This document shows, in pieces, positions 5,457 through 31,011 of a stretch of 31,011 nucleotides of DNA; the first letter of the stretch is position 1; each line of letters begins with the position of its first letter. A model generated the notes under the pieces. That model worked only from the letters and a program-made list of their open reading frames with translations. It searched no databases and had not been told where the DNA came from. The stretch is taken from positions 1 through 31,011 of the IMG/VR virus record IMGVR_UViG_3300025000_000315. One strand, given 5' to 3'. Both the position numbers and the translations under genes were made by a program. This DNA comes from a virus.

Positions 5457-5475
5457 AATAACAGGAGGCAAGACA

Positions 5476-7540: not shown

Positions 7541-7541
7541 T

Positions 7542-7575: not shown

Positions 7576-7587
7576 GCGAGGAAAAAT

Positions 7588-9296: not shown

Positions 9297-9314
9297 ACTC
9301 ATTAGGAGGAAAGA

Positions 9315-9839: not shown

Positions 9840-9855
9840 AAAATAAAAGGACAAA

Positions 9856-10230: not shown

Positions 10231-10522
10231 GTTGGTAACATATTTTCTACGAAAGTTTCCGGGCTATACATTCCAATCACTTATGGACGAATACGCGATC
10301 AGATTTTATTCCTTAGTCAGCCAATCCGTTAAATTGGACGCGGCCGAACGTCGGGAACAAGCATTGATCGCTGTTTTGCCAAATGCTAAAAAAGGCGAAT
10401 ACGAACGAATAATGAAACAGTTTGAGAACTTTAGCGAAGATCCGATTGAAAGGTTTTTAATCAACCGCCCGGACAACAAGAAAAGTGGCGTAGATAAATT
10501 AAAGGGTTTATTAGGAGGATAA
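10217..10522 (+). CDS. Tail chaperone T extension, read by frameshift
   Basis: Its only early start codon (TTG at 10232) has no ribosome-binding site, and the conserved-looking sequence ('FLRKFPGYTFQSLMDEY') begins straight after it. I therefore read the frame from the A9 slip. About 100 residues, helical, with 'EDPIERFLINRPDNKKSG' near the end. As part of a G-T fusion it would link the chaperone to the tape measure protein. It ends just before the tape measure GTG. Confidence 0.7.
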   Translation: MRLLRLVTYFLRKFPGYTFQSLMDEYAIRFYSLVSQSVKLDAAERREQALIAVLPNAKKGEYERIMKQFENFSEDPIERFLINRPDNKKSGVDKLKGLLGG

Positions 10523-10523
10523 A

Positions 10524-12599: not shown

Positions 12600-12600
12600 T

Positions 12601-12951
12601 ATGTGGATTTTAGACGGAAACCAAATACCAACACCACAAAGAAAAGTTATTAAAAACGACGTTGTAGCCGTTGTGCACCGGACGCTCGACGGAGGATTCA
12701 GCCGGGACTTTGTGGGAAGCGAAAAAAAGATTTTTGAATGCGAATATACGCCGATTAGCGCGGAGGATTATGAGGTTATTAGAGCCGAGTACGAAGATCA
12801 GCGCGACAACGGCACGGCTAAAATATTGACGATTAGCGACGACGATTTTACATTTAGCGCCGGAGTTATTATTTCAATGCCGGAAATGAATTTTAATTTT
12901 GCCAACCATTACAATTACAGAAACGTAAAAATAAACTTTACGGAGGTTTGA
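12601..12951 (+). CDS. Distal-tail-type minor tail protein
   Basis: 116 residues, ATG after AGGAGGA. Beta-rich ('MWILDGNQIPTPQRKV', 'EYTPISAEDYEVIRAEYEDQ', 'NYRNVKINFTEV'). The overall pattern is that of short tail proteins that read like half of a Dit or lambda gpM-type protein and join the tail tube to the hub. It is located between the tape measure and the hub, where Dit is expected. I cannot assign a precise family. Confidence 0.5.
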   Translation: MWILDGNQIPTPQRKVIKNDVVAVVHRTLDGGFSRDFVGSEKKIFECEYTPISAEDYEVIRAEYEDQRDNGTAKILTISDDDFTFSAGVIISMPEMNFNFANHYNYRNVKINFTEV

Positions 12952-12952
12952 G

Positions 12953-14980: not shown

Positions 14981-14983
14981 ATA

Positions 14984-15002
14984 TGTTAAAATAGAGGCAA
15001 AT
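14984..15002 (+). promoter_or_regulatory. Possible extended -10 promoter and ribosome-binding site
   Basis: TG-T-TAAAAT (14984-14992) resembles an extended -10, but no good -35 is present. GAGG at 14994-14997 serves the ATG at 15003. Confidence 0.28.
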
Positions 15003-15443
15003 ATGAAAATAATTTGTTCACAATGCAAGCGACACATCGGGACCATAAAGATAGGGTTTTGGGAATACGAAAAAAAGAACGGCACAAGAGAAATGAAGTT
15101 TATAGAAGATCCAAACGGGACGGACGTTAAGTATATTCAAGAACGAGGAATACTATCTTGCCGTAAAAGATTTGACGGGCATTGGGGGTTCAGTTGCGGA
15201 ATTTGCGGAAATGACAGCCGGATCGCCGAAGCGGAAAAAGGAATAATTGGAACAAAAAAAGTTGATAGCAGAGGACGAATTACCGTCAGAATACCAACCA
15301 AAAGAGATATAGCGAGGGTTTTTAGAAACTTGGAGAAAAGGCCAACCGGCGTAAAAGAAGCCAGCCCGGAAAAAAGAGTAGTAGATAATTTTGAAATAAC
15401 AACCGAAAAAGGGGAGGAAAAATATGTCTTACAATGCAATTGA
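15003..15443 (+). CDS. Zinc-ribbon phage protein
   Basis: 146 residues. The N-terminal C5-x2-C8 ('ICSQCKRHIG') and a later pair in 'GFSCGICGN' form a likely two-part zinc ribbon, and the C-terminal third is charged and helical. I do not recognise a function; similar small zinc proteins are common between tail and lysis genes. It overlaps the following fibre gene by 20 bases. Confidence 0.6.
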   Translation: MKIICSQCKRHIGTIKIGFWEYEKKNGTREMKFIEDPNGTDVKYIQERGILSCRKRFDGHWGFSCGICGNDSRIAEAEKGIIGTKKVDSRGRITVRIPTKRDIARVFRNLEKRPTGVKEASPEKRVVDNFEITTEKGEEKYVLQCN

Positions 15444-16044
15444 TTTTGTTTATGGAGAACAACCGAGCGCTACAAAATGGAACTACTTAGGTTCAAACGA
15501 CGCCGGGTTTAAGGACGGGACAAATATTGACGATGACGCGATTATAGCAAGACATATTGCCGACAATGCGGTAGGGACCGCGCAGATCGCAAACAACGCC
15601 ATAACAGCCGATAAGATTGCGGCCGGAGCGGTAGGAGCCGACGAAATAGCCACGAACGCCGTAGGAACGGCCGAGATCGCGAACGACGCCGTTACGGTGG
15701 ACAAATTAGCGGACAACTGTATTGCTCAACCACAATTACAAAACGATTGCGTTGGGATAAACGAGATTGAGGACGGGTTGTTTCCTTTCAACAATCAAGG
15801 ACCTTACACCAACTTAAATATTATTTTTAACATATTAAATACGACAAACACGGGTACTACTTGGACGTTTCCTTCAGCAGGACAATTTGCTTCTTCTTCA
15901 ACTTATGCGGTAGTAGCGACGGTACAGGATGGATCAGCCGCATCAGGGATTGTGGCAACAATTAAAAGTAAAGCGGCAGGGAGTTGTATTGTTCAAAACA
16001 GTTGGGGGACGATTGCAACCTCTATGATCGCGATGGGGAGGTAA
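15424..16044 (+). CDS. Tail fibre / tip protein with short helical repeats
   Basis: 206 residues, ATG after GGGGAGG. Residues ~35-105 hold imperfect ~9-residue repeats of the type NAVGTAQIA / NAITADKIA / NAVGTAEIA, as found in the slender trimeric stems of many phage fibres. The last ~85 residues ('TTWTFPSAGQFASSST', 'VQDGSAASGIVATIKS') form a beta-rich head that is the likely receptor-contact domain. It sits after the hub and before lysis, the usual place for a tail-tip fibre. Confidence 0.68.
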   Translation: MSYNAIDFVYGEQPSATKWNYLGSNDAGFKDGTNIDDDAIIARHIADNAVGTAQIANNAITADKIAAGAVGADEIATNAVGTAEIANDAVTVDKLADNCIAQPQLQNDCVGINEIEDGLFPFNNQGPYTNLNIIFNILNTTNTGTTWTFPSAGQFASSSTYAVVATVQDGSAASGIVATIKSKAAGSCIVQNSWGTIATSMIAMGR

Positions 16045-16047
16045 ATT

Positions 16048-16293
16048 ATGACACGAAATTGGAACATTAAATCAAAGAAGGATTATAACGAGGAATATTT
16101 TGAGGTGGTGGTTGATTTGCCGGTACACGAAACGATCAACCCGGCCGGAGTTATGGTAGATAATTTAGTTATGGTTAACAAACAAAGAATGAAAAAATAT
16201 TTAGAAGAAGGTAAAACGGAGGATCAGGCAATTAAGGGCGTGTTAGACGAAACGGCCGACGAGCATTGCGATCCTTCAAAGTTTACAATTTAA
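16048..16293 (+). CDS. Hypothetical small acidic protein
   Basis: 81 residues following the fibre gene by three bases. Contains 'EYFEVVVDLPVHETINPAG' and a helical C terminus. No family, membrane segment or metal motif is recognised. Position suggests a fibre accessory or a protein of the late operon. Confidence 0.6.
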   Translation: MTRNWNIKSKKDYNEEYFEVVVDLPVHETINPAGVMVDNLVMVNKQRMKKYLEEGKTEDQAIKGVLDETADEHCDPSKFTI

Positions 16294-16306
16294 GCAGGAG
16301 GGAATT

Positions 16307-16558
16307 ATGACCGGGATCGAACAAACATTAGCGAACGCCGGAGTGCTTGGAGCAGTAGTACTCTGGTTTATGCTTAGATCAGAAAAACGAACGGACAATT
16401 TAACGAAGGCGCTGAACAACAATAATTTATTGGTTGTTTATTTGATTGAAACAGTAGCAAATTGCCCGAACAACACGACGGCCGCAAGTTCAATGCGCGA
16501 CGAACAAATGGCCCGGATCAAACAAGAGATTTTAGGCCAACAAAACGCCGAAGGTTAA
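16307..16558 (+). CDS. Single-pass membrane protein, BhlA-like holin candidate
   Basis: 83 residues with a strong AGGAGGG site. One hydrophobic segment at residues ~8-23 ('LANAGVLGAVVLWFML') is followed by a charged tail ('RSEKRTDNL') and a second weakly hydrophobic stretch. This is the layout of BhlA/UviB-type small holin-like proteins. It starts a block of small membrane genes ending at the amidase, so a role in lysis is likely but inferred. Confidence 0.55.
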   Translation: MTGIEQTLANAGVLGAVVLWFMLRSEKRTDNLTKALNNNNLLVVYLIETVANCPNNTTAASSMRDEQMARIKQEILGQQNAEG

Positions 16559-16559
16559 A

Positions 16560-16658
16560 ATGACAGAAAAGGTTATACAGATTGGGATTATATTTTACTT
16601 CGTTGCAACCTCAACAGTTTTATGCTATTATTTGATTAAACAAGCGAGGAACAAATGA
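16560..16658 (+). CDS. 32-residue single-pass membrane peptide
   Basis: ATG at 16560, one base after the previous stop, and ending in an ATGA overlap with the next gene. The peptide is MTEKVIQIG followed by a ~17-residue membrane span ('IIFYFVATSTVLCYYLI') and a KQARNK tail, an N-out/C-in-like charge pattern. Tight coupling on both sides argues that it is real. It could be a mini-holin, an antiholin or a membrane anchor. Confidence 0.55.
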   Translation: MTEKVIQIGIIFYFVATSTVLCYYLIKQARNK

Positions 16659-16969
16659 ACGAACTATTTACATTGGTTTTTTTACACTTTCTCGGCGACT
16701 TTCCATTACAAGGAAAATATTTAAGCGATAAGAAATGCGAATTACCGATAGTTATGATAATTCACTGTTTTATTTACGGCGGATTATTTTTTTTATTTGC
16801 GGATTTATCAATTTATTTAACGGGAATTATTATGGCAAGCCATTACGCGATCGACTACGCTATGGCCTGCAAATTTATTAAAATGCGCCCGGACTACAAG
16901 TTGGCGCTTGACCAATATTTACACGTTTTATTACTTGTGATTATTTGGTTTTTTAGTCAAGGAGTATAA
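16655..16969 (+). CDS. DUF3307-like membrane protein, lysis block
   Basis: 104 residues, three or four membrane spans. The start 'FTLVFLHFLGDFPLQGKYLS' followed by 'KK' and an 'IIHCFIYGGLFFLF' span matches the DUF3307 pattern of an 'hxLgDFxLQ' motif, then Lys-Lys and a His-containing helix. Its function is unknown in that family. Its ATG overlaps the upstream peptide's stop, and its TAA overlaps the amidase ATG. It may form the membrane hole that releases the amidase. Confidence 0.62.
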   Translation: MNELFTLVFLHFLGDFPLQGKYLSDKKCELPIVMIIHCFIYGGLFFLFADLSIYLTGIIMASHYAIDYAMACKFIKMRPDYKLALDQYLHVLLLVIIWFFSQGV

Positions 16970-17832
16970 TGTTTATACAAAGCCCGAATTACACAAAGGG
17001 ACGAGGCGGAAAACCGGCAAGCCTGATTATTATACATTGGTTCGGAGTAGGAACGATTGACGGCGCTATTGCTTCTTTCCAGAACCCGGCACGAGAGGCC
17101 AGCGCACATTATTTAATATCAGACAGCCGCTTGGTTCAAATGGTGGACGAAGGCGATACAGCGTGGCACGCGGGGGTTTATGCGGTCAATCAAATATCAA
17201 TCGGGATAGAACACGACGCCAACCCGGACAAACAGTTGAGCGAGGCAAGTTATCAAACTTCGGGAAAATTGGTTAGAGAAATTTGCGCCCGGCACAGCAT
17301 ACCAATCGACAGAGAACACATTAAGGGCCACAACGAGATCAAGGCAACGCAATGTCCTGGAACAATAGACATAAATAAAATAATTGAAATTGCAAAAGGA
17401 GGCAGCAATATGGATAAGTTTCACGAGTTTGTTATTGCGACGATCAGACGAGCGCGCGAGGTTATGCTTAGCGGTCCGCTTGACAATCCAGGCGCGGAAG
17501 CGGACGCCAAAAGGATTGAAGCCGAATACGCCGCCGGAAATCAATACGTTTTAGAGCAGTTACTTTTTGACGTTTACACGAAGGCGGGGAATTATCAACT
17601 TATGACAAAGGCGGAGCATAATACGATTATGGCAAAAGCGGAAGCCGACGCCAAAGAAACGGCGGATCAGGCTTACAAAGACGGTGCGGCAGGCGTGGTT
17701 TGCCCGGAATGCCCGGAACAAGTCATTTGCGAACCTTGCCCGGAATGCAAACCGGAGATCAAAGTTATTACTGATTTGAGCGGACCGGAAATAATAAAAT
17801 TTGGAATTAAAAAATGGTTGGGGATAGCATAG
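16969..17832 (+). CDS. N-acetylmuramoyl-L-alanine amidase (endolysin) with Cys-rich tail
   Basis: 287 residues. Residues ~1-140 are an Amidase_2 (T7 lysozyme/PGRP-like) domain. Likely zinc ligands are H23 ('LIIIHWFG'), H121 ('KGHNE') and C129 ('CPG'), with 'SAHYLI' (H47) and 'AWHAG' also conserved. It cuts the bond between N-acetylmuramic acid and L-alanine in peptidoglycan. A helical linker (~150-240) leads to five cysteines at 245, 248, 254, 257 and 260 in CPEC-type motifs, then an amphipathic end (GIKKWLGIA). There is no signal peptide, so a holin is needed. The ATG overlaps the upstream TAA. Confidence 0.88.
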   Translation: MFIQSPNYTKGRGGKPASLIIIHWFGVGTIDGAIASFQNPAREASAHYLISDSRLVQMVDEGDTAWHAGVYAVNQISIGIEHDANPDKQLSEASYQTSGKLVREICARHSIPIDREHIKGHNEIKATQCPGTIDINKIIEIAKGGSNMDKFHEFVIATIRRAREVMLSGPLDNPGAEADAKRIEAEYAAGNQYVLEQLLFDVYTKAGNYQLMTKAEHNTIMAKAEADAKETADQAYKDGAAGVVCPECPEQVICEPCPECKPEIKVITDLSGPEIIKFGIKKWLGIA

Positions 17833-17877
17833 GAAGCGACAGGGGGATCTTCCTTCGGACGGCGTAATTTAATAATT

Positions 17878-18372
17878 GTGCCGCCGAAAAGAAGGGAGGC
17901 CAAGCCTATAGAAACTTTTTTAACGTTGGCATTACTTCAGATAAGTCAGATTATGCCGGTTACAATGCCGCCAACGGCAAAACAAGCAAAAGTAGTCGAG
18001 GTCAATCAATTTTTGGAAAAACCTTTGGTTGCGGAAACTGAATTAACACCGCAACCCGTGAAAGGGAATCACAAGTTTGCTAACGGTAACTGCACAAAGT
18101 ATGTTGCCGATAAAAGAGGCGGACTGCCGTGGTCGGGTAATGCCAACAGGTGGCTCTATAATGCTCCAAGATTTAATTACGAGGTGGGAGATGAGCCGGA
18201 GGTCGGAGCAATTCTTGTAACAAACGAGGGTTGGGTAGGACACGTTGCTTATGTAGAAAACATAGACAGCGACCGGATCACAATTAGCGAGATGAATTAC
18301 AAGGGATTTGGGGTCGTTTCACAAAGGACAATTTCCAAAAATTACAGTGCGATTAAGGGTTACATTTATTAA
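17878..18372 (+). CDS. CHAP-domain peptidoglycan hydrolase with hydrophobic N terminus
   Basis: 164 residues if started at GTG 17878. The C-terminal ~100 residues are a CHAP (amidase/endopeptidase) domain with C72 ('NGNCTKYVA'), H122 ('GWVGHVAYVE') and E138/N140 ('ISEMNYKG') as expected catalytic residues. The N terminus has a hydrophobic segment ('IETFLTLALLQISQIM') and could be a signal or membrane anchor. The GTG has no ribosome-binding site, while AGGGAGG at 17893-17899 is spaced for an ATA codon at 17908; the true start is uncertain. It may be a second endolysin or a secreted lysin. An imperfect hairpin precedes it at 17831-17854. Confidence 0.75.
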   Translation: MPPKRREAKPIETFLTLALLQISQIMPVTMPPTAKQAKVVEVNQFLEKPLVAETELTPQPVKGNHKFANGNCTKYVADKRGGLPWSGNANRWLYNAPRFNYEVGDEPEVGAILVTNEGWVGHVAYVENIDSDRITISEMNYKGFGVVSQRTISKNYSAIKGYIY

Positions 18373-18388
18373 ATAAGAGGAGGCGCAA

Positions 18389-18571
18389 ATGAAAACAGGG
18401 TTAGTTACAACCGAGTTTTGGGTGGTAATTGCCACCTTTTTGACCGCTATCTTCGGAGGCGATCAAAACGAATGGGTAAACGCAATACAAGCAATCGTCG
18501 CCGGCGCGGCCGGAGTTGCCTACATTGTCTATCGTATCCAATTGAAAATTGCCGCGAACAAAAAAAAATAA
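18389..18571 (+). CDS. Two-span holin-like protein
   Basis: 60 residues with a strong AGAGGAGG site. Two membrane spans (about 10-23 'FWVVIATFLTAIFGG' and 32-51 'AIVAGAAGVAYIVYRIQL') and a Lys-rich C terminus are the standard class II holin layout. It is the last gene of the late block, directly before a strong terminator, and follows two peptidoglycan hydrolases. It is the best holin candidate of the window. Confidence 0.68.
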   Translation: MKTGLVTTEFWVVIATFLTAIFGGDQNEWVNAIQAIVAGAAGVAYIVYRIQLKIAANKKK

Positions 18572-18578
18572 GGCAAGG

Positions 18579-18615
18579 AAAAAGAAGGTCAACTCACGCA
18601 CGGCCTTCTTTTTTA
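18579..18615 (+). terminator. Rho-independent terminator of the late operon
   Basis: AAAAAGAAGG and CCTTCTTTTT pair around a ~13-base loop and run into six T's. It closes the late gene block. Confidence 0.82.
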
Positions 18616-18635
18616 GTTATCCACAGGACGAGGGC

Positions 18636-18671
18636 TTTACAAAATAAAATAAAAGGCGCATAATAAAAGCA
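18636..18671 (+). promoter_or_regulatory. Promoter P1 (shared phage motif)
   Basis: -35 TTTACA (18636-18641), 17-base spacer, -10 CATAAT (18659-18664), start near 18671. The bases CTTTACAAAAT around the -35 and GCGCATAAT around the -10 recur in promoter P2 at 19665. Confidence 0.72.
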
Positions 18672-18781
18672 CTATGAATGATCCAAAAATAACAATTTGT
18701 GTTTTTGTAAAGATCGACAATTTTATTGTTGGTTCGTTACATAGTCCAAATGAGTCCACCGGGTAACCGGAGGGCTTTTTT
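18671..18781 (+). ncRNA. Short transcript unit (~110 nt), possible leaderless 30-residue peptide
   Basis: The unit runs from the start predicted by P1 to the terminator at 18753-18781. It holds an ATG at 18674, only three bases from the predicted start, opening a 30-codon frame (MNDPKITICVFVKIDN...) that stops at 18764-18766, inside the terminator loop. It could be a small regulatory RNA, a leaderless peptide, or an attenuated leader of the regulator operon. Confidence 0.42.
18753..18781 (+). terminator. Terminator/attenuator in the regulator leader
   Basis: AGTCCACCGG and CCGGAGGGCT pair around GTAA (one A-A mismatch, one G-U), followed by six T's. Readthrough is needed for P1 to express the downstream genes. 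Confidence 0.62.
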
Positions 18782-19077
18782 GGTTGTTGAAAGCAGGACG
18801 GATTAAACTCTTTTCTGCTTCTAATAACTAAACTTATTGGAAATTCGTGGCACAACTCACCGATAGAGGTAATGAGCGAATTAAAAGAATTTGATTACAA
18901 GTTCGGGGACGTTAGACAACTACGGATACCTCACTCACGGGCAGACAGTTAGGACACGGGCAAGCGCCTAAACACTAACTGCCCAGAGAAGGAAACGGCT
19001 GGGAACGCACTATGGGATTAGGCAGTTGGGAACAGGTTCCATAAGAATAGAATACATAGCATACAAAAAGGAGTAGT
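18782..19077 (+). other. ~300-base leader with competing RNA structures, no convincing gene
   Basis: GGGC (18939-18942) plus AGTTAG (18947-18952) pair with CTAACTGCCC (18975-18984). The same AACTGCC can instead pair with GGCAGTT (19021-19027), enclosing a CCCAG/CTGGG hairpin (18982-18986/18999-19003). TTAGG/CCTAA (18949-18953/18967-18971) is a third alternative. AAGCAG/CTGCTT forms a hairpin upstream. A 26-codon frame at 18872-18952 (MSELKEFDYKFGDVRQLRI...) has a GAGG site and faintly resembles the start of an antirepressor. A weak promoter (TTGGGA 19026, TAGAAT 19048) may also be present. I recognise no known riboswitch or intron. Confidence 0.45.
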
Positions 19078-19230
19078 ATGGAAGGAAGGGAAAAATGGTT
19101 GCCAAGAACAATCAGGATGCCCGACGATTTATGGTATAAACTGGCTTTAGAGTCAGCAAGAAGGAAGATACCAACGTCGGAATTAGTGAGAGAATTAATT
19201 GTAAAACAATTGGAAACGGAGGAGGGTTGA
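19078..19230 (+). CDS. Ribbon-helix-helix DNA-binding regulator
   Basis: 50 residues, ATG after AAGGAG. 'RTIRMPDDLWYKLALESA' followed by 'RKIPTSELVRELIVKQLE' is the classic ribbon-helix-helix form (one strand and two helices, CopG/Arc-like), which binds DNA as a dimer through the strand. The long structured leader and the repeated promoter motif nearby suggest it may control the early promoters, but the operator is unknown. Its stop is five bases before the next ATG. Confidence 0.8.
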   Translation: MEGREKWLPRTIRMPDDLWYKLALESARRKIPTSELVRELIVKQLETEEG

Positions 19231-19234
19231 GGAA

Positions 19235-19477
19235 ATGGAAGAACAGCCATTATATAAGTTTGTAGAAATTAACGGCAAGAAGTATTGCGATCACAAGGTA
19301 TTTGGATTACAGGACGCGGAATGGTTCAGGGATCACAAAGTTAATCCGGAGGACGAGGCGATACCGGTGTTTCAAAGAGATAACAAAGTTATGATCCACC
19401 CGTTTTTTATGGACGCGGAGAACAGAGAAAAATACAAAAATTATTACGAAAGGCAGAAGGAGTTAAAAAATGATTGA
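19235..19477 (+). CDS. Hypothetical protein
   Basis: 80 residues, ATG after GGAGGG. Contains 'KFVEINGKKYCDHKVFGLQD' and a Tyr/Lys/Glu-rich end. No family or membrane segment recognised. It overlaps the next gene by eight bases, in the same early operon as the ribbon-helix-helix regulator. Confidence 0.65.
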   Translation: MEEQPLYKFVEINGKKYCDHKVFGLQDAEWFRDHKVNPEDEAIPVFQRDNKVMIHPFFMDAENREKYKNYYERQKELKND

Positions 19478-19658
19478 AACTGGGAATAGGATTTACTTTA
19501 TGGACGCGGAAAAACAGTATTTATATTTTTATAGGAAATCAAACGGTATTATAAAAGGGAGTTTCGACGAGTCGGAACAGCCGTACAACAAAAACGAAAT
19601 GGCGATTTTGGAGCAATTGCGCGGCGACGACTACTGTTTTAACGATTTAGATAATTAA
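19470..19658 (+). CDS. Hypothetical protein
   Basis: 62 residues. Aromatic-rich start ('IYFMDAEKQYLYFYRKSNG'), acidic end. Unknown function. It is the last gene of the short regulator operon and stops seven bases before promoter P2. Confidence 0.6.
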   Translation: MIETGNRIYFMDAEKQYLYFYRKSNGIIKGSFDESEQPYNKNEMAILEQLRGDDYCFNDLDN

Positions 19659-19664
19659 AAAAAC

Positions 19665-19700
19665 TTGACAAAATTAAAACCACAGCGCATAATTAAACTA
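19665..19700 (+). promoter_or_regulatory. Promoter P2 (shared phage motif)
   Basis: -35 TTGACA (19665-19670), 17-base spacer, -10 CATAAT (19688-19693), start near 19700. It is the strongest-looking of the three related promoters and precedes the antirestriction and recombination genes. Confidence 0.78.
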
Positions 19701-19773
19701 CGATCAGCAAGCGCCCATTGGCCCAACAAAAAACAAAGTCAGATGAGGCGAATATAGATCTAAATGGAGGACT

Positions 19774-19802
19774 GGAACGCCGGGACAACCGGCTTCCGGT
19801 TC
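19774..19802 (+). repeat. Three CCGG arms with alternative hairpins in the P2 leader
   Basis: AACCGG-CTT-CCGGTT (19787-19801) is one hairpin. GAAC-g-CCGG (19775-19783) can instead pair with CCGG-TTC (19796-19802). The 155-base leader between P2 and the ATG at 19855 has no supported gene, so this structure may regulate elongation or RNA stability, or be an operator. Confidence 0.4.
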
Positions 19803-19854
19803 AAACACAAGGGGAGGGACGTTAACAATCAAAAAAATAATAGGAGCAAACATT

Positions 19855-20121
19855 ATGACAAAATCAGAATTTAAGTTAGAAGAATTTAATAATTGCCGAC
19901 CGAATTTGGTTTTAGGACAGATCAGTGCTTTTGATATTGAATACGTGGACTTGCCGAAGGATTTTTGGCAGAACACCGGAGATACGTTAGTATTTAAGAC
20001 GAACAAAACGGACTTCCAAACCGGGATTGAATTAGGCAATTTTGCGGTACAAATGAGCGCCGACGAAATACATATGATAAAGGACGGCGACGACACGATT
20101 ATAAGATTATGGTTTGATTAA
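19855..20121 (+). CDS. Hypothetical early protein
   Basis: 88 residues, first gene after promoter P2, ATG after AGGAG. Beta-rich ('LGQISAFDIEYVDLPKDFWQ', then 'ELGNFAVQMSADEIHM'), acidic. No family recognised. As the first early gene before ArdA-like protein it is a candidate anti-defence or host-takeover factor, by position only. Confidence 0.62.
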   Translation: MTKSEFKLEEFNNCRPNLVLGQISAFDIEYVDLPKDFWQNTGDTLVFKTNKTDFQTGIELGNFAVQMSADEIHMIKDGDDTIIRLWFD

Positions 20122-23889: not shown

Positions 23890-24423
23890 TTGAGCAGAGT
23901 AGTTATTGAACTAACAGAGGACGAACAAGCGCGAATGATCGAATGGTGCAAGAAGGTTCAAGCCGACAAGCAGGCGAGGAACTCCATAGACAAGCGTGTG
24001 GACAAGCGGTTCAGTTCTTTTGATATTATGCTTTTGGGACTTTGCGGCGAATACGCGATCTGCAAGCACTTGGGAATACCTTACAATTTTAGGCGCTGGG
24101 ACGAACAAGGCAAAGGCGACGTTACGCATAATGGTTACGAGATAGAAGTTAAAACAAACAAATACCGCGACGACCTATTAAAGATACCGGAGTGGCAAGT
24201 AGACTGCCCGGCCGATATTTATGTATTAGCGCAACAACTTTACAGATTAAAACTGTTTGAGATTTTAGGTTACGCGACAAGAGAAACATTTAGAGCATTG
24301 AGGTACAAAAAGACATTTCCTGGATACGAGGATAAGCCGATGTTCGTTATGGATTATTTAGATTTGGAACGGCCGGAATACTTTAGATCAGCGTTATTAT
24401 TACAAAGAGGAGCGCAATGCTAA
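23890..24423 (+). CDS. PD-(D/E)XK restriction-endonuclease-like protein
   Basis: I start it at TTG 23890 (MSRVVIELTED), since AAGGAG at 23879-23884 is correctly spaced and the GTG at 23884 overlaps that site. 177 residues. The nuclease core is 'LCGEYAICKHLGIPYN' (E54), 'GKGDVTHNGYEIEVKT' (D77, E86-x-K88), a clean PD-(D/E)XK set like those of type II restriction enzymes and transposon nucleases. No methyltransferase partner is beside it. It may act in host DNA breakdown or as a phage-borne restriction nuclease. It overlaps the ferredoxin gene by seven bases. Confidence 0.7.
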   Translation: MSRVVIELTEDEQARMIEWCKKVQADKQARNSIDKRVDKRFSSFDIMLLGLCGEYAICKHLGIPYNFRRWDEQGKGDVTHNGYEIEVKTNKYRDDLLKIPEWQVDCPADIYVLAQQLYRLKLFEILGYATRETFRALRYKKTFPGYEDKPMFVMDYLDLERPEYFRSALLLQRGAQC

Positions 24424-24590
24424 AAATCAATTATTCAAAATGTGTTGGTTGCGAAACTTGCGTTAGGACATACCCGGATCATTTTCAGGTGGTTTATGGC
24501 GCCGTCAGCATTACAAACCCGGACGGTCCGAACGAGGCGGCCGCAGTTTGCCCGAACGAAGCGATAGAGGTGCAAGATGAGAAAAATTAA
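24417..24590 (+). CDS. Small ferredoxin, single [4Fe-4S]
   Basis: 57 residues, ATG after AGAGGAG, overlapping the nuclease stop by seven bases and the next gene by 14. 'SKCVGCETCVRTYPD' gives C9-x2-C12-x2-C15 and 'AAAVCPNEAIEV' gives C45-Pro, the four ligands of a bacterial [4Fe-4S] ferredoxin of the short (Fer4-type) class. It carries one electron at low potential in the cytoplasm. No partner reductase or radical-SAM enzyme is visible in the window. Ferredoxin genes are rare in phages and are usually host-derived metabolic genes. Confidence 0.8.
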   Translation: MLKINYSKCVGCETCVRTYPDHFQVVYGAVSITNPDGPNEAAAVCPNEAIEVQDEKN

Positions 24591-25362
24591 GGTAGCAATT
24601 TTAGGATCAAGCGGAATGCTTGGAAGTATGGTTAAAAATGTTTTAGAACGCGACGACAGAATACAATTATTTTGCCCGAGCCGAGAGGACTTTGATGCCG
24701 CTTGTGTGAGCGTTTCACAATTACAGACGGCTACTTACGATTGCGATTGGATTATTAACTGCATTGGGGTTTTGAACAAATACATTGACGAAAAGAACCC
24801 GGAGAGCGTAAAGAACGCGATCAGAGTCAATGCGCTATTTCCATACACTTTAGCAGAAACAGGAAAGAAGATCATTCAGATCGCGACCGATTGCGCCGGA
24901 GAGCCGGACACTTATGGAATGACAAAAAAATTAGGAGAGGTTAAGGCGCCAAACTTTATCAATATCCGCTGTTCAATTGTAGGTCCGGGAAACCCGACCG
25001 GGTTATTGGATTGGTTTTTGTATCAGCCAATGAGCGCGATAGTACAAGGATATACGAAAGCGATTTGGAACGGGGTTACGACATTGGCATTTGCAAAACT
25101 TTGTTATGGAATAGTTACGAAGAATTTAACCTTGCCAAACCAAAACAATTTTACGCCACACGACGCGGTTACAAAAAAATTGATGCTTGAAATGTTCAAA
25201 AAATACTTTTCAAGAGAGGATATTAAAATAGTGTCAGTTGAAAACGGAACAGATAGACAGGTAGAAAAGGGCGACGACGACTTATGGAGATTGGCAGAAT
25301 ACGACCAAGTGCCGACAGTAGAATACCTAATAAAAGAATTAGTAAATTATATGGAGGGTTAG
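24577..25362 (+). CDS. RmlD-like nucleotide-sugar reductase (extended SDR)
   Basis: 261 residues. An N-terminal NAD(P) fold with 'VAILGSSGMLGSMVKN' (GxxGxxG) is followed by 'DWIINCIGVLNKYIDEKNPE', the family's conserved Asn-Cys-x-Gly region, and 'TYGMTKKLGEV' with the catalytic Tyr-x3-Lys. This matches dTDP-4-dehydrorhamnose reductases, which finish L-rhamnose-type deoxysugars. The substrate here is uncertain. The ATG overlaps the ferredoxin end by 14 bases, and its stop abuts the next gene. Confidence 0.78.
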   Translation: MRKIKVAILGSSGMLGSMVKNVLERDDRIQLFCPSREDFDAACVSVSQLQTATYDCDWIINCIGVLNKYIDEKNPESVKNAIRVNALFPYTLAETGKKIIQIATDCAGEPDTYGMTKKLGEVKAPNFINIRCSIVGPGNPTGLLDWFLYQPMSAIVQGYTKAIWNGVTTLAFAKLCYGIVTKNLTLPNQNNFTPHDAVTKKLMLEMFKKYFSREDIKIVSVENGTDRQVEKGDDDLWRLAEYDQVPTVEYLIKELVNYMEG

Positions 25363-26121
25363 ATGAAAATTTTAATCACTGGGATTGCCGGAACTTGGGG
25401 TAAAGAGTTCACAAAACAATTATTAGCCGAAGGTCACGAAGTTTTAGGGATTGACGTTACGGAGCAAGCGTTAGCGGCGTTTCAGCACGAATACCCGAAC
25501 ATAGATACTTTGCTTATGGATATTGAAGACGTCGATTTTAAGCAATTACCGGTGGACGTTGTTATTCACTTGGCGGCACACAAGCACATCGACATTTGCG
25601 AAAAGAACGTATTCGAAGCCGTGGAAAACAATGTTACGAAGACAGCGAAATTATTTGACAACGCGCGCAGAAATGGAGTAAAGATTTTATTCGTCAGTAC
25701 CGACAAAGCCGTGGAACCGGCGAGCGTTTATGGATTTACGAAAGCATTGGGAGAACATTTAGCGTGGGAAGCAGGCGGACAGGTGGCAAGAAGTGGCAAC
25801 ATTATGGGAAGCAATGGGTCGGTTTTAACAGTTTGGGATAAGGCGATTAAAGAACACAGACCGATCAACATCACAGATCCGGAAATGACAAGATATTTTA
25901 TAGAAATTGAAACGGCCGTAAAAAGAGTTTGGGACGGGTTCAACGCCGGCGAACGGCTTATCATTGTTGCTATGGGCGAGCCGACACGATTAGGCGACCT
26001 TTTGGACGAGGTTTTGACATTACACGGATTTTCACAAGAAAATTACCCGGCCGGAATTACAATCGCCGGACGACGACCGGGCGAGAAACAGCACGAACGA
26101 CTGACTTGGGACAATGAGTAA
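25363..26121 (+). CDS. CapD/PseB-like nucleotide-sugar 4,6-dehydratase or epimerase
   Basis: 252 residues. NAD(P) motif 'ILITGIAGTWGKEF', then 'VVIHLAAHKHIDICEKNVFE', 'ILFVSTDKAVEPASVYGFTK' (catalytic Tyr-x3-Lys), 'ARSGNIMGSNGSVL', 'ITDPEMTRYFIEIETAV' and 'GRRPGEKQHERLTW'. These are the full set for polysaccharide-biosynthesis SDRs such as UDP-GlcNAc 4,6-dehydratase. The protein is compact, since related enzymes have about 330 residues. With the RmlD-like enzyme it could make a deoxysugar nucleotide. It overlaps the next gene by eight bases. Confidence 0.82.
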   Translation: MKILITGIAGTWGKEFTKQLLAEGHEVLGIDVTEQALAAFQHEYPNIDTLLMDIEDVDFKQLPVDVVIHLAAHKHIDICEKNVFEAVENNVTKTAKLFDNARRNGVKILFVSTDKAVEPASVYGFTKALGEHLAWEAGGQVARSGNIMGSNGSVLTVWDKAIKEHRPINITDPEMTRYFIEIETAVKRVWDGFNAGERLIIVAMGEPTRLGDLLDEVLTLHGFSQENYPAGITIAGRRPGEKQHERLTWDNE

Positions 26122-26389
26122 AAAATTAAAAAAGATTTATTTAGACAAAGGGATCACATACTGCGAACTTAGATTACCGCATAAATGTTGGGGAAACGCC
26201 GGATTGAGTTTTGCTCATAAAAGAAAACGAATTGAGTATAAAAGTTGCCCGGAAAAATTGGATACTTTTGAGGAAACGTTATTACTATGCCCGGAGGCGC
26301 ATAACCTTATAGAATACGGGGACAAGAAAAACACCGGTAGAGAACTAACAGCGATAGCATTTAACCAATTAAGAGGAGAAGGAAAATGA
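26114..26389 (+). CDS. HNH-like protein with an altered zinc site
   Basis: 91 residues. The pattern 'ITYCELRLPHKCW', 'LSFAHKRKRI' and 'LLLCPEAHNLIE' is that of a phage HNH-like family with CxE...C, AHk.kR and CxxCHxxiE. The second Cys of the last motif is Ala (C59-P-E-A62-H63), so the zinc site may be damaged or different. It sits inside a sugar-modification operon, which suggests insertion or a role in DNA transfer. It overlaps both neighbours. Confidence 0.6.
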   Translation: MSKKLKKIYLDKGITYCELRLPHKCWGNAGLSFAHKRKRIEYKSCPEKLDTFEETLLLCPEAHNLIEYGDKKNTGRELTAIAFNQLRGEGK

Positions 26390-27321
26390 AAATATCTTAT
26401 CTTGGAAACTTCAAATTTCCGTGGTGTACGGAAGTTCACATTAGCAAAACATTAGAGGCGTTGGGACATACGGTTATTCGGTTACAAGAGGACGAAGCCG
26501 ATATGAAAGTTGTTTTGGATAACGCTAACACAAGCGATATGTTCTTATGGACAAGGACGCCGGGAATGTTGCGATTTAACGGGTGGGAAATGATTAGCAA
26601 AATCAAAGTATTAAAGGTCAGTTACCACCTTGATTTATATGTCGGGATCAGCCGGGAAAATTGGTTGGACGATGAGGCATTTTTCCATACGGATTATGTT
26701 TTCCAAGCCGACGGAGATCCGCACAGTATGGAGGTTTTTAAGCAAAAGAATGTCAACGCGATTTGGCAGAAGCCGGGAGTTTACGCGCCGGAATGCACGA
26801 TCGCAGAACCGGCCGCCGACTTAATAACGGATATTGCTTTCATAGGAAGCCACGAACGATACCACGAAGAATGGCCTTACAGAATGCAGTTGGTAGAATG
26901 GTTAGGAAATACTTACAAGGAACGATTTAAAGCCTTTCCAACGCCGACAAGCGGGGTAATAATGTGCGAGCGGTTGAACCAACTTTGTGCAAGCGCCAAG
27001 ATAATAATTGGCGACGCGCTTTGCAAGGACTTTACGCATACAAATTATTGGAGCAACCGGGTTTATGAGATCACCGGGCGCGGAGGATTTATTATTCACC
27101 CGGTAATTGAAGGATTGAAAGAGGAGTTTGGAAACAATATTGGTTATTACGATTATGGGAACTTTGGACAATTAAAATCCTTGATTGATTATTACATTTC
27201 GGACAACGCGGCAAGGGAAGAATTAAGAAAAAAAGGCCACGAATTGACAAAGAATAATTACACTTTTACACACCGGTTACAAGCGATGTTTGAGATACTT
27301 GAAAAGGAAGGTGCGATTTGA
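26386..27321 (+). CDS. CgeB-like glycosyltransferase (GT-B)
   Basis: 311 residues. 'NRVYEITGRGGFIIHP' and 'YYDYGNFGQLKSLIDYYI' are the donor-site motifs of the Glyco_trans_1_2 family (CgeB-like), with 'DIAFIGSHERYHEEWPYRMQ' in the middle linking the two domains. CgeB of Bacillus acts on the spore outer layer. It probably transfers the sugar made by the upstream enzymes. The four-base overlap with the next gene suggests coupling. Confidence 0.8.
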   Translation: MKISYLGNFKFPWCTEVHISKTLEALGHTVIRLQEDEADMKVVLDNANTSDMFLWTRTPGMLRFNGWEMISKIKVLKVSYHLDLYVGISRENWLDDEAFFHTDYVFQADGDPHSMEVFKQKNVNAIWQKPGVYAPECTIAEPAADLITDIAFIGSHERYHEEWPYRMQLVEWLGNTYKERFKAFPTPTSGVIMCERLNQLCASAKIIIGDALCKDFTHTNYWSNRVYEITGRGGFIIHPVIEGLKEEFGNNIGYYDYGNFGQLKSLIDYYISDNAAREELRKKGHELTKNNYTFTHRLQAMFEILEKEGAI

Positions 27322-27986
27322 AACAGATTATTAACGTATTTTATAAGAATAAAAACTTACCTTTTTGGATCAGGCCAGAATACAAGGACAAAAAAAAGAT
27401 TATAGACATACAGGTTTTGGGAGAGATATTTGACCAAAATGTTTATAAGTTAACGCCGGAACATTTTAAGACGGGGACGATCATTGATTTGGGATCAAAC
27501 ATAGGAGCAGTTGCTATACAGGCGGCGCAACTCGGAGCAATCAAAATAATTGCGATTGAGCCGAACAAATCAAACTTAGCATTATTAGAGGACAACTTGA
27601 GAGAAAATAATTGCGAAGCAGAAATATTAAGAGTAGCAATTGGAGCAGAACCAGGAGAAACTTCGATCACGGACGAAGCCGGCAACAGCAAAACAGGAGA
27701 AGAAGGGGAAAAGGTAAACGTTACAACGCTTGAAGAAATAATTAGTTTCCATTTTGCGGACCAAGAAATTGACGTTTTGAAAATAGACGTAGAAGGGGAC
27801 GAGTACAAAATCCTATTAAGCACGCCAAAGGAAGCATTGGAAAAGATCAGAGTTATTACAATGGAGTTTCACGCGACAGACGAGGAAACATTTGGAAAAT
27901 TGATTTGTAAATTGAGCGAAAGTTTCGTAGTTGAAACAATAGGATCATTTGACAAGGGCGGACAAATAACAGGGAGAAGGTACTAA
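27318..27986 (+). CDS. FkbM-family methyltransferase
   Basis: 222 residues, TTG start overlapping the previous stop, after AAGGAAGG. The SAM motif is 'TIIDLGSNIGAVAIQAA', with the acidic 'IAIEPNKSNL' end and 'VLKIDVEGDEYKILLSTP', the family's IDVEGxE signature. FkbM-type enzymes O-methylate sugars or polyketides. Here it could methylate a sugar on the glycan built by neighbouring transferases. SAM could come from the MetK encoded two genes downstream. Confidence 0.83.
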   Translation: MKQIINVFYKNKNLPFWIRPEYKDKKKIIDIQVLGEIFDQNVYKLTPEHFKTGTIIDLGSNIGAVAIQAAQLGAIKIIAIEPNKSNLALLEDNLRENNCEAEILRVAIGAEPGETSITDEAGNSKTGEEGEKVNVTTLEEIISFHFADQEIDVLKIDVEGDEYKILLSTPKEALEKIRVITMEFHATDEETFGKLICKLSESFVVETIGSFDKGGQITGRRY

Positions 27987-28658
27987 ATGACTTACAAGAT
28001 CGTAATACCTATTTATACAAACGAACACTTGGCAGATAACTGCTTAAAAAGCATTGATGTTGATTGGAAACATTTGATTATAGTCGACAATAGCAAAGAT
28101 AGTTTTTGCAAGAAATACGAGGGACGAGGCGCGACGATTTATTATTACCCGGAAAACATAGGAGTATCAAGGGCTTGGAATTTGGGATTAAAAGCGGACG
28201 CGGATTGGACTTTTTTTGTTTCGATTGCCGTTGCGTTTCCAAACGGATTTAGCGAGGTTTTGGCGGAATTAAAAAACGCAAACGACTATTTATTCTGTTC
28301 GGACTTGGCGTGGCATTGTAACGCGATTAGTCGGGAATGCGTTAAGGCCGTTGGGTACTTTGACGAAAACTTTTACCCGGCTTACTACGAGGACACGGAT
28401 TATGTCAGGCGAATGCAGTTATTAGGAATACCAGTTACGGTAGTCAGGACAAGCGCTTACAGCGCCGTGCAATCTAACTCAACGGAAAGCGACAGAGGGT
28501 TGCCGGTACATTACCTAAATTTGGAAAAATACTATATCGAAAAATGGGGAGGAAAACCCGGACACGAAACATTTGACAAGCCATTTGGGGACAAGGGGAT
28601 CGGGTATTGGGTCGGACAAACTATTAACACATTAAAACAGCGATATGGATTGGAGTAG
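27987..28658 (+). CDS. Family-2-like glycosyltransferase (GT-A)
   Basis: 223 residues directly after the methyltransferase stop. Starts 'YKIVIPIYTNEHLADNCLKS', has 'HLIIVDNSKDSF' and 'NIGVSRAWNLGLKADADWTF', and ends with 'YYEDTDYVRRMQLLG', the catalytic-region ED motif of GT2 enzymes. A usual DxD is not obvious (a VSIAV stretch takes its expected place), so the donor site may be altered. It follows the FkbM gene as part of the glycan operon. Confidence 0.78.
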   Translation: MTYKIVIPIYTNEHLADNCLKSIDVDWKHLIIVDNSKDSFCKKYEGRGATIYYYPENIGVSRAWNLGLKADADWTFFVSIAVAFPNGFSEVLAELKNANDYLFCSDLAWHCNAISRECVKAVGYFDENFYPAYYEDTDYVRRMQLLGIPVTVVRTSAYSAVQSNSTESDRGLPVHYLNLEKYYIEKWGGKPGHETFDKPFGDKGIGYWVGQTINTLKQRYGLE

Positions 28659-28661
28659 AAA

Positions 28662-29675
28662 ATGAAAACAGCCGAAGCAGTTATGCCCGGACACCCGGAC
28701 AAAGTGGCGGATCAAATTAGCGACGCAATACTCGACGAATACTTACGGAGAGATCCATACGCGAGGGTAGCGGTGGAAACAATGGGCGGACACGGCAAAC
28801 TCTATATTTGTGGAGAGGTTACAGCCAAAGGAAAACCATTATACAAAAACGAAATCGTTGAAATAGCGAGAAGGGTTTACGCGAGGATAGGTTATAAAGA
28901 TAGATTAAAAATACAGGTCAATATTGTTAACCAAAGCCCGGACATCTCGCAAGGAGTCGAGATCGGAGGAGCAGGAGATCAAGGAATAATGGTTGGATAT
29001 GCCTGTAATGAAAACGAGCAAATGATACCACAGGAATTATATTTGGCGCGCAAACTTATTATGAGAATTTACGAGGACGGGATTTTTGGCCCAGACGGAA
29101 AATGCCAAGTTACGCTCACAGAGGACAACCAAATTGATACAGTTGTTTTATCAGTACAAACGCACGACGTTACAGATATTAAAAAAGGTTTTGTAGAAAA
29201 GTTTTTAGGACAGTCGGTTAAAAATTATCACTTCAATCCGACAGGAAAATTTGAGATTGGAGGGTTCGCGGCCGACACGGGATTAACAGGCCGAAAGTTA
29301 GCGGTGGATAATTACGGTCCGCAGATACCAGTCGGAGGAGGAGCGTTTAGCGGAAAAGATCCGAGCAAGGTAGACAGATCAGCCGCTTATATGGCAAGAA
29401 GGGTTGCGATTGACGCGTTACGATTTATGGAAGCGGAAAACGTTACAGTTAAATTAGCGTATTCGATAGGAGTAGCAAAGCCGGTTATGGCAATGGTCGA
29501 TATAAACGGCAAAGAACAAGAGGACACGGAGAAAAAAGCAAAATGGTTGATGGCGAAGCATTATGACTTCACGCCAGAGGGGATTATTAGACAATTAGAT
29601 TTACGCAAACCGATTTACGAGATCACTGCCAGAGAAGGACATTTTGGGAATGAAATATTTAGTTGGGAGAAATAA
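28662..29675 (+). CDS. metK: S-adenosylmethionine synthetase
   Basis: 337 residues, shorter than the ~384 of the E. coli enzyme but with all three domains. Family motifs: 'PGHPDKVADQISDAILD' (H11, D13, K14), 'GAGDQGIMVGYA' (around 103-114), 'FNPTGKFEIGG', 'TGLTGRKLAVDNYG' and 'GGGAFSGKDPSKVDRSAAY' (226-243, the phosphate-binding loop). It makes SAM from ATP and methionine, probably as a tetramer. No obvious catalytic residue is missing. A phage-encoded copy in this operon could feed the FkbM enzyme or keep SAM high during infection. Confidence 0.93.
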   Translation: MKTAEAVMPGHPDKVADQISDAILDEYLRRDPYARVAVETMGGHGKLYICGEVTAKGKPLYKNEIVEIARRVYARIGYKDRLKIQVNIVNQSPDISQGVEIGGAGDQGIMVGYACNENEQMIPQELYLARKLIMRIYEDGIFGPDGKCQVTLTEDNQIDTVVLSVQTHDVTDIKKGFVEKFLGQSVKNYHFNPTGKFEIGGFAADTGLTGRKLAVDNYGPQIPVGGGAFSGKDPSKVDRSAAYMARRVAIDALRFMEAENVTVKLAYSIGVAKPVMAMVDINGKEQEDTEKKAKWLMAKHYDFTPEGIIRQLDLRKPIYEITAREGHFGNEIFSWEK

Positions 29676-29777
29676 ATGCCGAAGATAGACGAGATAATTG
29701 CACGATTGGATTATAGGTGGGATTACAGACAGGACGAAGTACCGCTCGAAGTTCAGATCGAAGGTATTTATTTGTAA
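29676..29777 (+). CDS. Possible 33-residue peptide
   Basis: ATG immediately after the metK stop, encoding MPKIDEIIARLDYRW and a short charged end, then TAA. It has no own strong ribosome-binding site and could be translated by coupling. No family; it may be a small gene or a remnant. Confidence 0.35.
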   Translation: MPKIDEIIARLDYRWDYRQDEVPLEVQIEGIYL

Positions 29778-29809
29778 ATTAAACAGCAGGAAGAAAAAGA
29801 AGGAGGAGA

Positions 29810-30844
29810 ATGAGGATAGGGCTAATTTGCCGCGCCGATAACGGAGGATTGGGAGCGCAAACTCACGACTTTTATAGGAATATGAACCCGGCCAAGACGC
29901 TCGTAATAGACATTAGCCACCTTACGGGTTTTGAAAACCATTTAGAAAGATACCCGGACGCAAAGGTCCACAAAGGGTTCTTAGATAATGAAGCAATCGA
30001 ATGGATTACAGATAATGTTGATGTTATTTTCACGATCGAAATACCTTACAATTACGCGCTATTTGAAACCGCAAGAAGGAAAGGCGTCAAGACGTTTTTA
30101 CAATACAATTATGAGTTTTTGGATTATATGAGAGAGCCGGAGTTGCCTTACCCGGACGTTTTAATGGCGCCAAGCCATTGGAACTTCGGAAAGGTATTAG
30201 AGAAATTTGGGAGCAAAGCGATTGTTGATTATTTACCGGTGCCGGTTGACCGGACAATATTTAAGTACAGGAAGCGCGAGCAGGCCAAAACGTTTATTCA
30301 CGTCGCCGGGCATACTCTTTATGAGGACAGGAACGGGACGGAGATAGTAATAGAAGCGTTGAATTATTTGAAAAAAGGCGCAAAGATTATAATTTACAGC
30401 CAACACGATTTAGGAATACCAAAAGAAAAAATAGGGAAGTTTCCGCAATACGAACTGGAGATAAGAGAGGGCGATTTTAAGTACCGGGACGAACTTTATA
30501 AAGAAGGGGACGTGTTAATTTTTCCAAGACGATACGGCGGATTATCATTACAGTTAAACGAGGCAATGAGTTCGGGAATAGTGCCGATTATGACAGACGT
30601 TATGCCGCAAAACACGATGTTAAAACAAGAATTATTATTAGCGCCGATACACATTAAACCGATACAAACAAGAGGAGCGGACATAGATTGTTACGGAGTA
30701 GATCCGAGATTGTTAGCATTAAAAATCGACGAGATGACAGGACAGAGGATAGGATATTTGAGCGATTGGTGCAACAAAGAAGCGGAGAAAATAAGTTGGG
30801 AAACAATGAAACCGAAATACGAAAGGTTTTTTGAGGAGGTTTGA
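29810..30844 (+). CDS. GT4-like glycosyltransferase (GT-B)
   Basis: 344 residues, ATG after AGGAGGAG. The N domain starts 'IGLICRADNGGLGAQTHDF' and the C domain carries 'FPRRYGGLSLQLNEAMSSGI', the family's donor-binding region with its Glu. The linker segment 'APSHWNFGKVLEKFG' and 'VPVDRTIFKYR' matches GT4 enzymes. It is probably another transferase for the same glycan. Its end is followed by an overlap-free start two bases later. Confidence 0.8.
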   Translation: MRIGLICRADNGGLGAQTHDFYRNMNPAKTLVIDISHLTGFENHLERYPDAKVHKGFLDNEAIEWITDNVDVIFTIEIPYNYALFETARRKGVKTFLQYNYEFLDYMREPELPYPDVLMAPSHWNFGKVLEKFGSKAIVDYLPVPVDRTIFKYRKREQAKTFIHVAGHTLYEDRNGTEIVIEALNYLKKGAKIIIYSQHDLGIPKEKIGKFPQYELEIREGDFKYRDELYKEGDVLIFPRRYGGLSLQLNEAMSSGIVPIMTDVMPQNTMLKQELLLAPIHIKPIQTRGADIDCYGVDPRLLALKIDEMTGQRIGYLSDWCNKEAEKISWETMKPKYERFFEEV

Positions 30845-30845
30845 C

Positions 30846-31011
30846 GTGGAGTACAGGCTGATTAAAAAGGTGGAAAACCCGAAATATAGTTTTATTTTAC
30901 CGATATCAAGAGATTGGGCTATTTTGGAAATCTTCAAGTATTTGCACAGCGCGATTTTACCTTACGAGGAAACGGAAATGGTTTTTTATGTTGACGAGGT
31001 TAGGATGGACG
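30846..31011 (+). CDS. Glycosyltransferase-like protein, 3' truncated by the window end
   Basis: GTG start after GAGGAGG. Only 55 residues are visible: a basic start (MEYRLIKKVENPKYS), then 'FILPISRDWAILEIFKYLHS' and 'EEMVFYVDEV'-like strands. The strand-helix-strand order with a hydrophobic 'SFILPIS' is what a GT2/GT-A domain begins with. The call rests on this short stretch and on the neighbours. Confidence 0.45.
   Translation, partial: MEYRLIKKVENPKYSFILPISRDWAILEIFKYLHSAILPYEETEMVFYVDEVRMD

Follow-up and report, generated by a model that had tools for sequence, protein, structure and literature searches.

What does a bacteriophage do with its own genes for making, transferring and methylating sugars? 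The question is raised by a viral record in IMG/VR, IMGVR_UViG_3300025000_000315, a fragment of 31,011 bases that is here called the window. From position 24417 on the plus strand up to the contig end at 31011, the window carries an operon that comprises, in order, a ferredoxin-like open reading frame (ORF), two short-chain dehydrogenase/reductase genes (SDR1 and SDR2), a 91-residue ORF, a CgeB-type glycosyltransferase (GT), an FkbM-family methyltransferase, a GT2-type GT, the S-adenosylmethionine (SAM) synthetase MetK, a 33-residue ORF, a GT4-type GT and a truncated gene. Adjacent genes are spaced by -14 to +3 bases, and a single 32-base gap precedes the GT4 gene. A reading made from the DNA letters alone (the sequence-only reading) had described two SDR enzymes, three GTs plus a partial fourth, FkbM and MetK as one operon; coordinates and genes hold, and Pfam, PHROG and NCBIfam matches together with the gene spacing confirm the clustering of GT genes with a SAM-dependent methyltransferase. 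We consider it probable, with moderate confidence, that this operon builds a methylated glycan carried by a virion protein of the phage itself.

A search of viral contigs with a CgeB alignment returned 27 loci, near-duplicates included (L109 and L110; the matches in L117 to L121 are identical), whereas single-sequence scans with MetK, the CgeB-type GT and SDR1 found no relative in these contigs. Further operon genes have relatives in the stretches scanned of the 27 loci: GT4 in 11, GT2 in 7, FkbM in 6, SDR2 in 3 (two of them weak) and SDR1 in 2. The ortholog set SDR1-SDR2-CgeB-FkbM-GT2-GT4 was found in the same order in L106 (42, 55, 54, 38, 42 and 38% amino acid identity, respectively), behind TerL, portal and capsid-like genes, the first two with matches over the Pfam cut-offs. 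An 81-residue ORF and a GT-like ORF separate the capsid-like gene from the L106 sugar cluster, which is interspersed with UPF0047, LicD, second GT2 and methyltransferase genes and with cupin and cytidylyltransferase genes that, like a scaffold gene in this locus, were assigned by eye.

Terminase and portal genes are preceded in L113 and L109 (and in L110, a near-copy of L109) by a set that includes CgeB, GT2, SDR and GT4 genes (the terminase and FkbM of L113 were assigned by eye), and the L109 portal is 34% identical to that of the window phage. The truncated gene at the end of the window (30846 to 31011, plus strand) matches a 280-residue L114 protein over 47 residues (E value, 5e-6), and that protein is in turn related to the ORFs, themselves without a Pfam match, that follow GT4 in L109 and L113. 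From the gene order in L109 and L113 and this kinship, we infer that the window operon also leads toward packaging genes. Since the L114 protein is GT2-like only below the Pfam cut-off, the truncated gene is described here as probably the 5' end of a further GT gene. No contig extending past position 31011 was recovered with an exact pattern of 36 bases taken from the end of the window. The GC-rich contig of L043 contains CgeB, GT2 and GT4 in the window order, with two intervening methyltransferase-like ORFs that were assigned by eye, as was a connector-like gene.

The GT2 enzyme belongs to a phage clade of capsid modules. Searching viral contigs with an alignment of GT2 proteins yielded 79 distinct loci from the best 80 of at least 540 relatives, in 74 of which the GT2 ORF was called by a simple ORF finder; the other five, L043 included, were left out of the neighborhood test. 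Both a capsid and a gp6-like connector gene are present in 30 of the 74 loci (the remaining 44 were left out of this comparison), and GT2 lies between the two in all 30, compared with a mean of 10.4 and a maximum of 20 for randomly chosen ORFs in 1,000 draws. A gene labeled capsid, connector, protease or (by eye) portal or tail tube was found within 5 kb of GT2 in 52 of the 74 loci; recurrent neighbors are GT4, HK97 capsid, prohead protease, gp6-like connector, cytidylyltransferase-like and SDR genes. Among annotated phages, S-CBS4, phiPsal1 and Streptomyces phages (five of the nine matching ones were examined) have GT and methyltransferase genes beside a portal, a capsid or a long fibre-like gene. 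Several relatives thus keep the operon beside particle-building genes, and the phage's own particle is therefore a more likely target than its DNA or the host. The gene order in L106 and the place of GT2 between capsid and connector in all 30 loci support the proposal of the sequence-only reading that the phage carries an operon for sugar modification, whose most likely role is the glycosylation of virions.

Comparable gene cassettes have been described in mycobacteriophages. In cluster O (Corndog), an O-methyltransferase and GTs between the portal and protease genes are proposed to modify the capsid (PMC4351075), and in cluster J, GTs are reported between the capsid and connector genes (PMC3706429). 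Glycans on the mycobacteriophage capsid and tail tube are attributed to Freeman et al. 2023 as cited in PMC12619734, PMC11256854 and PMC12691614. As described in these sources, the cassettes of Corndog (cluster O), cluster J and Che8 share with the window phage the combination of GTs with SAM-dependent methyltransferases, there beside portal, protease, capsid or connector genes. In contrast to them, the window phage adds a dehydratase-type SDR, a 4-keto-reductase-like SDR, MetK and a ferredoxin-like ORF, and its operon lies outside the visible head module. The GT-methyltransferase-GT2 cassettes of phiPsal1 and S-CBS4 contain a GT2 that is 28 to 31% identical to that of the window, with a C-terminal motif in common with S-CBS4, and Streptomyces phages of the Dryad/Yara type have a CgeB-type GT with 26 to 32% identity, accompanied in Dryad by an FkbM-domain methyltransferase. 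No nucleotide-sugar SDR pair is present among the annotated genes of the stretches examined in phiPsal1, S-CBS4 and the Streptomyces phages, whose cassettes likewise have a putative function. To our knowledge, few phages, most of them phages of actinobacteria, have been shown to have glycosylated virions.

Which sugar would be made? SDR2 (25363 to 26121, plus strand) matches Polysacc_synt_2 over the whole domain (E value, 7.7e-57), including nucleotide-binding, TDK and YxxxK motifs. It is of the UDP-N-acetylglucosamine (UDP-GlcNAc) 4,6-dehydratase type (PglF/CapD/CapE/PseB family): its closest solved relatives are the UDP-GlcNAc 4,6-dehydratases WlaL (PglF), CapD and CapE, and its best match in the PDB is WlaL (5bjy; E value, 2.4e-32), with the STDKA and YxxxK regions aligned. 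It scores below the equivalog cut-offs of PseB and FnlA and is shorter than WlaL and CapE. SDR1 (24577 to 25362, plus strand) resembles the RmlD-like NDP-4-keto-sugar reductases (RmlD_sub_bind; E value, 6.8e-4; 19.2 bits against a cut-off of 27). Its L106 relative aligns over nearly the full length, an L114 relative is 38% identical, and the GxxGMLG, TD and YxxxK positions are kept across four sequences. A dehydratase of the UDP-GlcNAc 4,6 type together with an RmlD-like reductase therefore makes a UDP-6-deoxy-N-acetylhexosamine (UDP-6-deoxy-HexNAc) the likely product, judging from what is known of these families. The sequence-only reading had instead called the gene set rhamnose-type. The best named matches of SDR1 are indeed RmlD models, though far below their cut-offs, which is a point for rhamnose; SDR2, however, groups with the UDP-GlcNAc 4,6-dehydratases, and no match to RmlA or RmlC was found among the window ORFs scanned. 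Rhamnose chemistry of the kind known from BclA is accordingly improbable, and the rhamnose-type label was rejected on the type of SDR2.

The next genes encode transferases. The CgeB/YkvP-type GT (26386 to 27321, plus strand; PF13524, E value 5.9e-12; phrog_28745) is a GT-B enzyme with a confident predicted structure (mean predicted local distance difference test score, 87.5), and fold searches matched many GT-B enzymes and gave no pointer to an acceptor. The FkbM-family methyltransferase (27318 to 27986, plus strand) starts with TTG and matches TIGR01444 (E value, 1.3e-24) and PF05050 (2.1e-15). The GT2-type enzyme (27987 to 28658, plus strand) matches phrog_29879 (3.9e-20) and, below threshold only, PF00535. 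GT4 (29810 to 30844, plus strand; PF13692, E value 2e-6, 28.5 bits against a cut-off of 27) has no relative among annotated phages. Sequence searches of the PDB with the CgeB-type GT, GT2, GT4 and SDR1 returned nothing significant.

Whether MetK (28662 to 29675, plus strand; TIGR01034, E value 9.1e-95, 317.8 bits against 309.4) belongs to this pathway is more doubtful. Its location in the sugar operon, pointed out by the sequence-only reading, stands, but pathway membership is questioned by the lack of a MetK relative in the stretches of the 27 CgeB loci and by the position of the gene in capsid-related phages. In Javan369 and an Anaerosphaera phage, whose capsids are related to that of the window, MetK precedes the genes for a DNA methyltransferase or ParB and for terminase; FP_Brigit shows the same arrangement of MetK, and the stretch examined there contains no match to the capsid. 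MetK is probably an older gene of this lineage and not a dedicated pathway member. The window gene fits that older position, and its presence in the operon alone is therefore no proof of a methyl-sugar pathway; we rejected it as such on its lineage position and its absence from the CgeB loci. FkbM, unlike MetK, does suggest a methyl-sugar pathway.

In the pathway that we propose, SDR2 would dehydrate UDP-GlcNAc to a 4-keto-6-deoxy sugar, which SDR1 would reduce to a UDP-6-deoxy-HexNAc of the N-acetylquinovosamine (QuiNAc) or N-acetylrhamnosamine (RhaNAc) type. The CgeB-type GT, GT2, GT4 and the truncated GT would add sugars one by one, and FkbM would methylate the glycan chain with SAM, part of which may come from the phage MetK. 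The short glycan would be made in the cytosol of the infected cell and attached to a virion protein during assembly, for which the collagen-like protein, the capsid, the tail tube or another fibre are candidate acceptors. Of this scheme, the genes and their order, their conservation and the proximity of related loci to head and packaging genes are observed; the identity of the sugar, its transfer order, the cytosolic location and the acceptor protein are inferred.

The collagen-like protein (711 residues; 1612 to 3747, plus strand; PF01391, E value 2.5e-42) is encoded between the portal/MuF and prohead protease genes, directly after its partner, a BppU_N-like small fibre or adaptor protein (1264 to 1611, plus strand; PF10651, E value 2.4e-4, just under the cut-off; phrog_1084). 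The sequence-only reading took it to be GxT-rich and likened it to a spore protein. The gene is collagen-like, and GxT-rich is a description that applies only in part: in runs of at least five triplets, 27 of 98 are GXT (28%), and GPQ, with 18, is the commonest triplet, compared with 7 GPT. The Bacillus spore hair protein BclA is a collagen-like acceptor that bears methylated deoxy-sugars; in contrast to BclA, neither a rhamnose gene set nor a GPT-dominated collagen region (GPT, 7/98) is found in the window phage. In phage SPP1, the gp12 gene lies among the head genes. Its product decorates the capsid and has a predicted collagen-like nature (PMC7602432), which it has in common with the window protein. 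Directly after the collagen gene, a glycine-rich protein (3757 to 4611, plus strand) aligns with phiPsal1 positions 16055 to 16744 when composition correction is switched off, perhaps through low complexity.

The BppU-like/collagen pair also occurs in L036 and L042 (17 to 21% identity; E value, about 1e-7), and in L036 a single module consists of portal, BppU-like, collagen, protease, capsid, GT4, a 168-residue ORF and GT2. In L055 (7774 to 14607, plus strand), on a 131-kb virus contig, a collagen gene with GXT in 116 of its 133 triplets (87%) comes after genes for a GT2-like/TPR protein (its GT2 match just under the cut-off), for a GT2-methyltransferase and for an HtrL_YibB-domain protein, the last of which it abuts. 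These features suggest L055 as the best place for testing phage collagen glycosylation. About 5 kb from this gene, on the opposite strand, the same record has another collagen region, a weaker one.

Beyond these loci, collagen genes are scarce among the sampled relatives. The record scan with PF01391 covered 22 of the 106 loci (4 GT2 and 18 CgeB loci, with L043 as the 19th CgeB-type record), L036, L042 and L055 having been entered because collagen was already known there. No match over the cut-off was obtained in the 19 CgeB-type GT records from viruses, many of them fragments (G010 and G015 gave weak matches), or in the eight named phage records with related GT cassettes. Runs of at least 10 collagen triplets are absent from the stretches of the 27 CgeB loci; collagen runs are present in 3 of the 79 GT2 loci in the stretches scanned, a count without a base rate from GT-free phages. 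The link between operon and collagen drawn in the sequence-only reading is thereby weakened: the refuting condition that it named, an operon shared by relatives without collagen, applies in part, in the 19 and 8 records, although three GT2 loci have both. Collagen is found in few sampled relatives and yet accompanies GT genes in three loci; the protein is therefore a possible acceptor here and not a general one.

Glycans on threonines of the collagen-like protein, stabilizing or cloaking the fibre, would be a special case of virion glycosylation that we regard as doubtful. Collagen gene and sugar operon do stand in one phage, L036 has GT4, GT2 and collagen in one head module, GT-type genes lead up to the GXT-dominated collagen gene of L055, and Mimivirus is reported to glycosylate its own collagen-like proteins (PMC4691112). 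Against this stand the sub-cut-off results in all 19 CgeB-type GT records and all 8 cassette phages, the 3 in 79 GT2 loci, the distance of about 21 kb between collagen gene and operon in the window, and the low GXT share. According to the same source, Mimivirus also makes unusual sugars of its own and methylated surface glycans, as the window phage may do, but it is a eukaryotic giant virus. If the target is a virion protein, the collagen-like protein has about one chance in three of being the acceptor. A fuller version appears unlikely: the tailed phage would turn UDP-6-deoxy-HexNAc of its own making into a methylated glycan carried by a collagen-like fibre of the head, in which glycosylated Y-position threonines would stabilize the triple helix in place of hydroxyproline, and L036 and L055 would belong to the same system of collagen glycosylation in phages. 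None of the papers listed in the literature searches dealt, by title or abstract, with the glycosylation of phage collagen, which does not prove that such work is absent.

Several observations weigh against a virion target. The operon follows recombination genes in the window and is not within the head module, the capsid call in L106 is below threshold (Pfam E value, 2.3e-4), and MetK, the ferredoxin-like ORF and the 91-residue ORF have no match in the stretches of the 27 CgeB loci. The GT2 profile included two phages with a known head-module GT2, a possible bias of the neighborhood test, although the matches were confirmed and ranked against the window protein. One FkbM stretch, which may be the core of the fold, has a 19-residue hydropathy mean of 1.79 and stands out from the otherwise low peaks of the 10 operon ORFs tested (the 33-residue ORF was excluded). 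Furthermore, a C5-cytosine methylase gene lies directly upstream of CgeB in L113, and the window phage itself encodes a TET-associated glycosyltransferase (TAGT), both of which would be in keeping with sugars destined for DNA.

The TAGT gene was found on a second IMG/VR contig, G001, which matches window positions 4 to 19,942 (about 19.9 kb) at 99.985 to 100% identity and extends it about 5.8 kb upstream with ParB, radical SAM and TAGT genes, a presumed TerS gene, the TerL gene and the portal start. A capsid scan and a TAGT scan of viral contigs each recovered G001, the former together with two distant short contigs. ParB, radical SAM and TAGT (PF20691; E value, 4.5e-11) occupy positions 9530 to 12215 of L007 on the minus strand of G001, just upstream of terminase. 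Sugars might accordingly be added to 5-hydroxymethylated pyrimidines of the phage DNA, with TAGT starting the chain and the operon GTs extending it. Two distinct annotated phages have TAGT relatives, next to a TET gene in P12024L and next to a pyrimidine hydroxymethylase gene in ctUhy936, and phage sugar-nucleotide enzymes for DNA modification exist, as reported for the UDP-xylose pyrophosphorylase of Thanatos (PMC12838424). The window phage shares TAGT with the TET/TAGT DNA glycosylation clusters, but no match to TET, thymidylate-synthase-family hydroxymethylase or C5-methylase was obtained in G000 or G001, the stretch between the contigs being outside the search; the same searches matched records known to contain these enzymes. 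TAGT was likewise not matched in the stretches of the 27 CgeB loci, nor found in any of 17 virus records of GT-cassette relatives, many of them fragments, sampled from the 22 used for the collagen scan, and the GT2 family tracks capsid genes. We consider DNA modification rather unlikely, and virion glycosylation remains the preferred explanation.

Enzymes for UDP-6-deoxy-HexNAc are typical of surface polysaccharide loci, and CapD and CapE are among the matches of SDR2, so that the operon could also alter host glycopolymers during infection or lysogeny and block superinfecting phages. This is a common reading of phage glycosyltransferases and has been proposed for pelagimyophages (PMC7029224). 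Such a role appears improbable here: no lipid-carrier transferase, flippase or ligase is present among the family matches of the visible operon genes, the hydropathy peaks are low apart from the FkbM stretch, and the relatives are linked with genes for capsid, portal and terminase. By pattern scan, moreover, hardly any cellular genome has a member of the CgeB clade: 27 loci were found in virus contigs compared with one match in 84,980 cellular genomes, in scans that differ in alignments and patterns; a single-sequence scan of cellular genome contigs with the CgeB-type GT found no relative. The sole cellular match, L133, is on a 3.4-kb contig of a metagenome-assembled genome (JAUPWC010000493.1) and may be viral sequence binned with it, its other long ORF being DNA methyltransferase-like by eye. 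The scarcity of cellular matches and the linkage of GT2 to capsid genes also led us to reject the acquisition of ordinary host lipopolysaccharide or capsule genes by the phage.

The operon is conserved, includes sugar-nucleotide steps of its own and is linked to genes for capsid and packaging in phages that are not related to each other, which suggests that custom methylated glycans are carried on the particles of many phages in the environment. The loci described here, including the GT-collagen group of L055, make it possible to ask whether such a coat serves particle stability, adsorption or the avoidance of binding.

The capsid protein of the window phage has relatives with about 26% identity in 300 phage records, 82 of them from Vibrio phages; the best 25 of the 300 records listed are phages of Firmicutes. 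Two small operon ORFs are absent from the gene list of the sequence-only reading. One, of 91 residues (26114 to 26389, plus strand), has no credible Pfam, PHROG or NCBIfam match. The other, the [4Fe-4S] ferredoxin-like ORF of 57 residues (24417 to 24590, plus strand), heads the operon, overlaps the start of SDR1 and matches PF13370 (E value, 5.1e-7) and PF00037, both over the cut-offs; its product might supply electrons to the radical SAM enzyme of G001 or to another operon step. In L043 (5891 to 7984, plus strand), the CgeB-type GT is seemingly split, beside the conserved YW...SDR motif, by a putative intein of about 390 residues.

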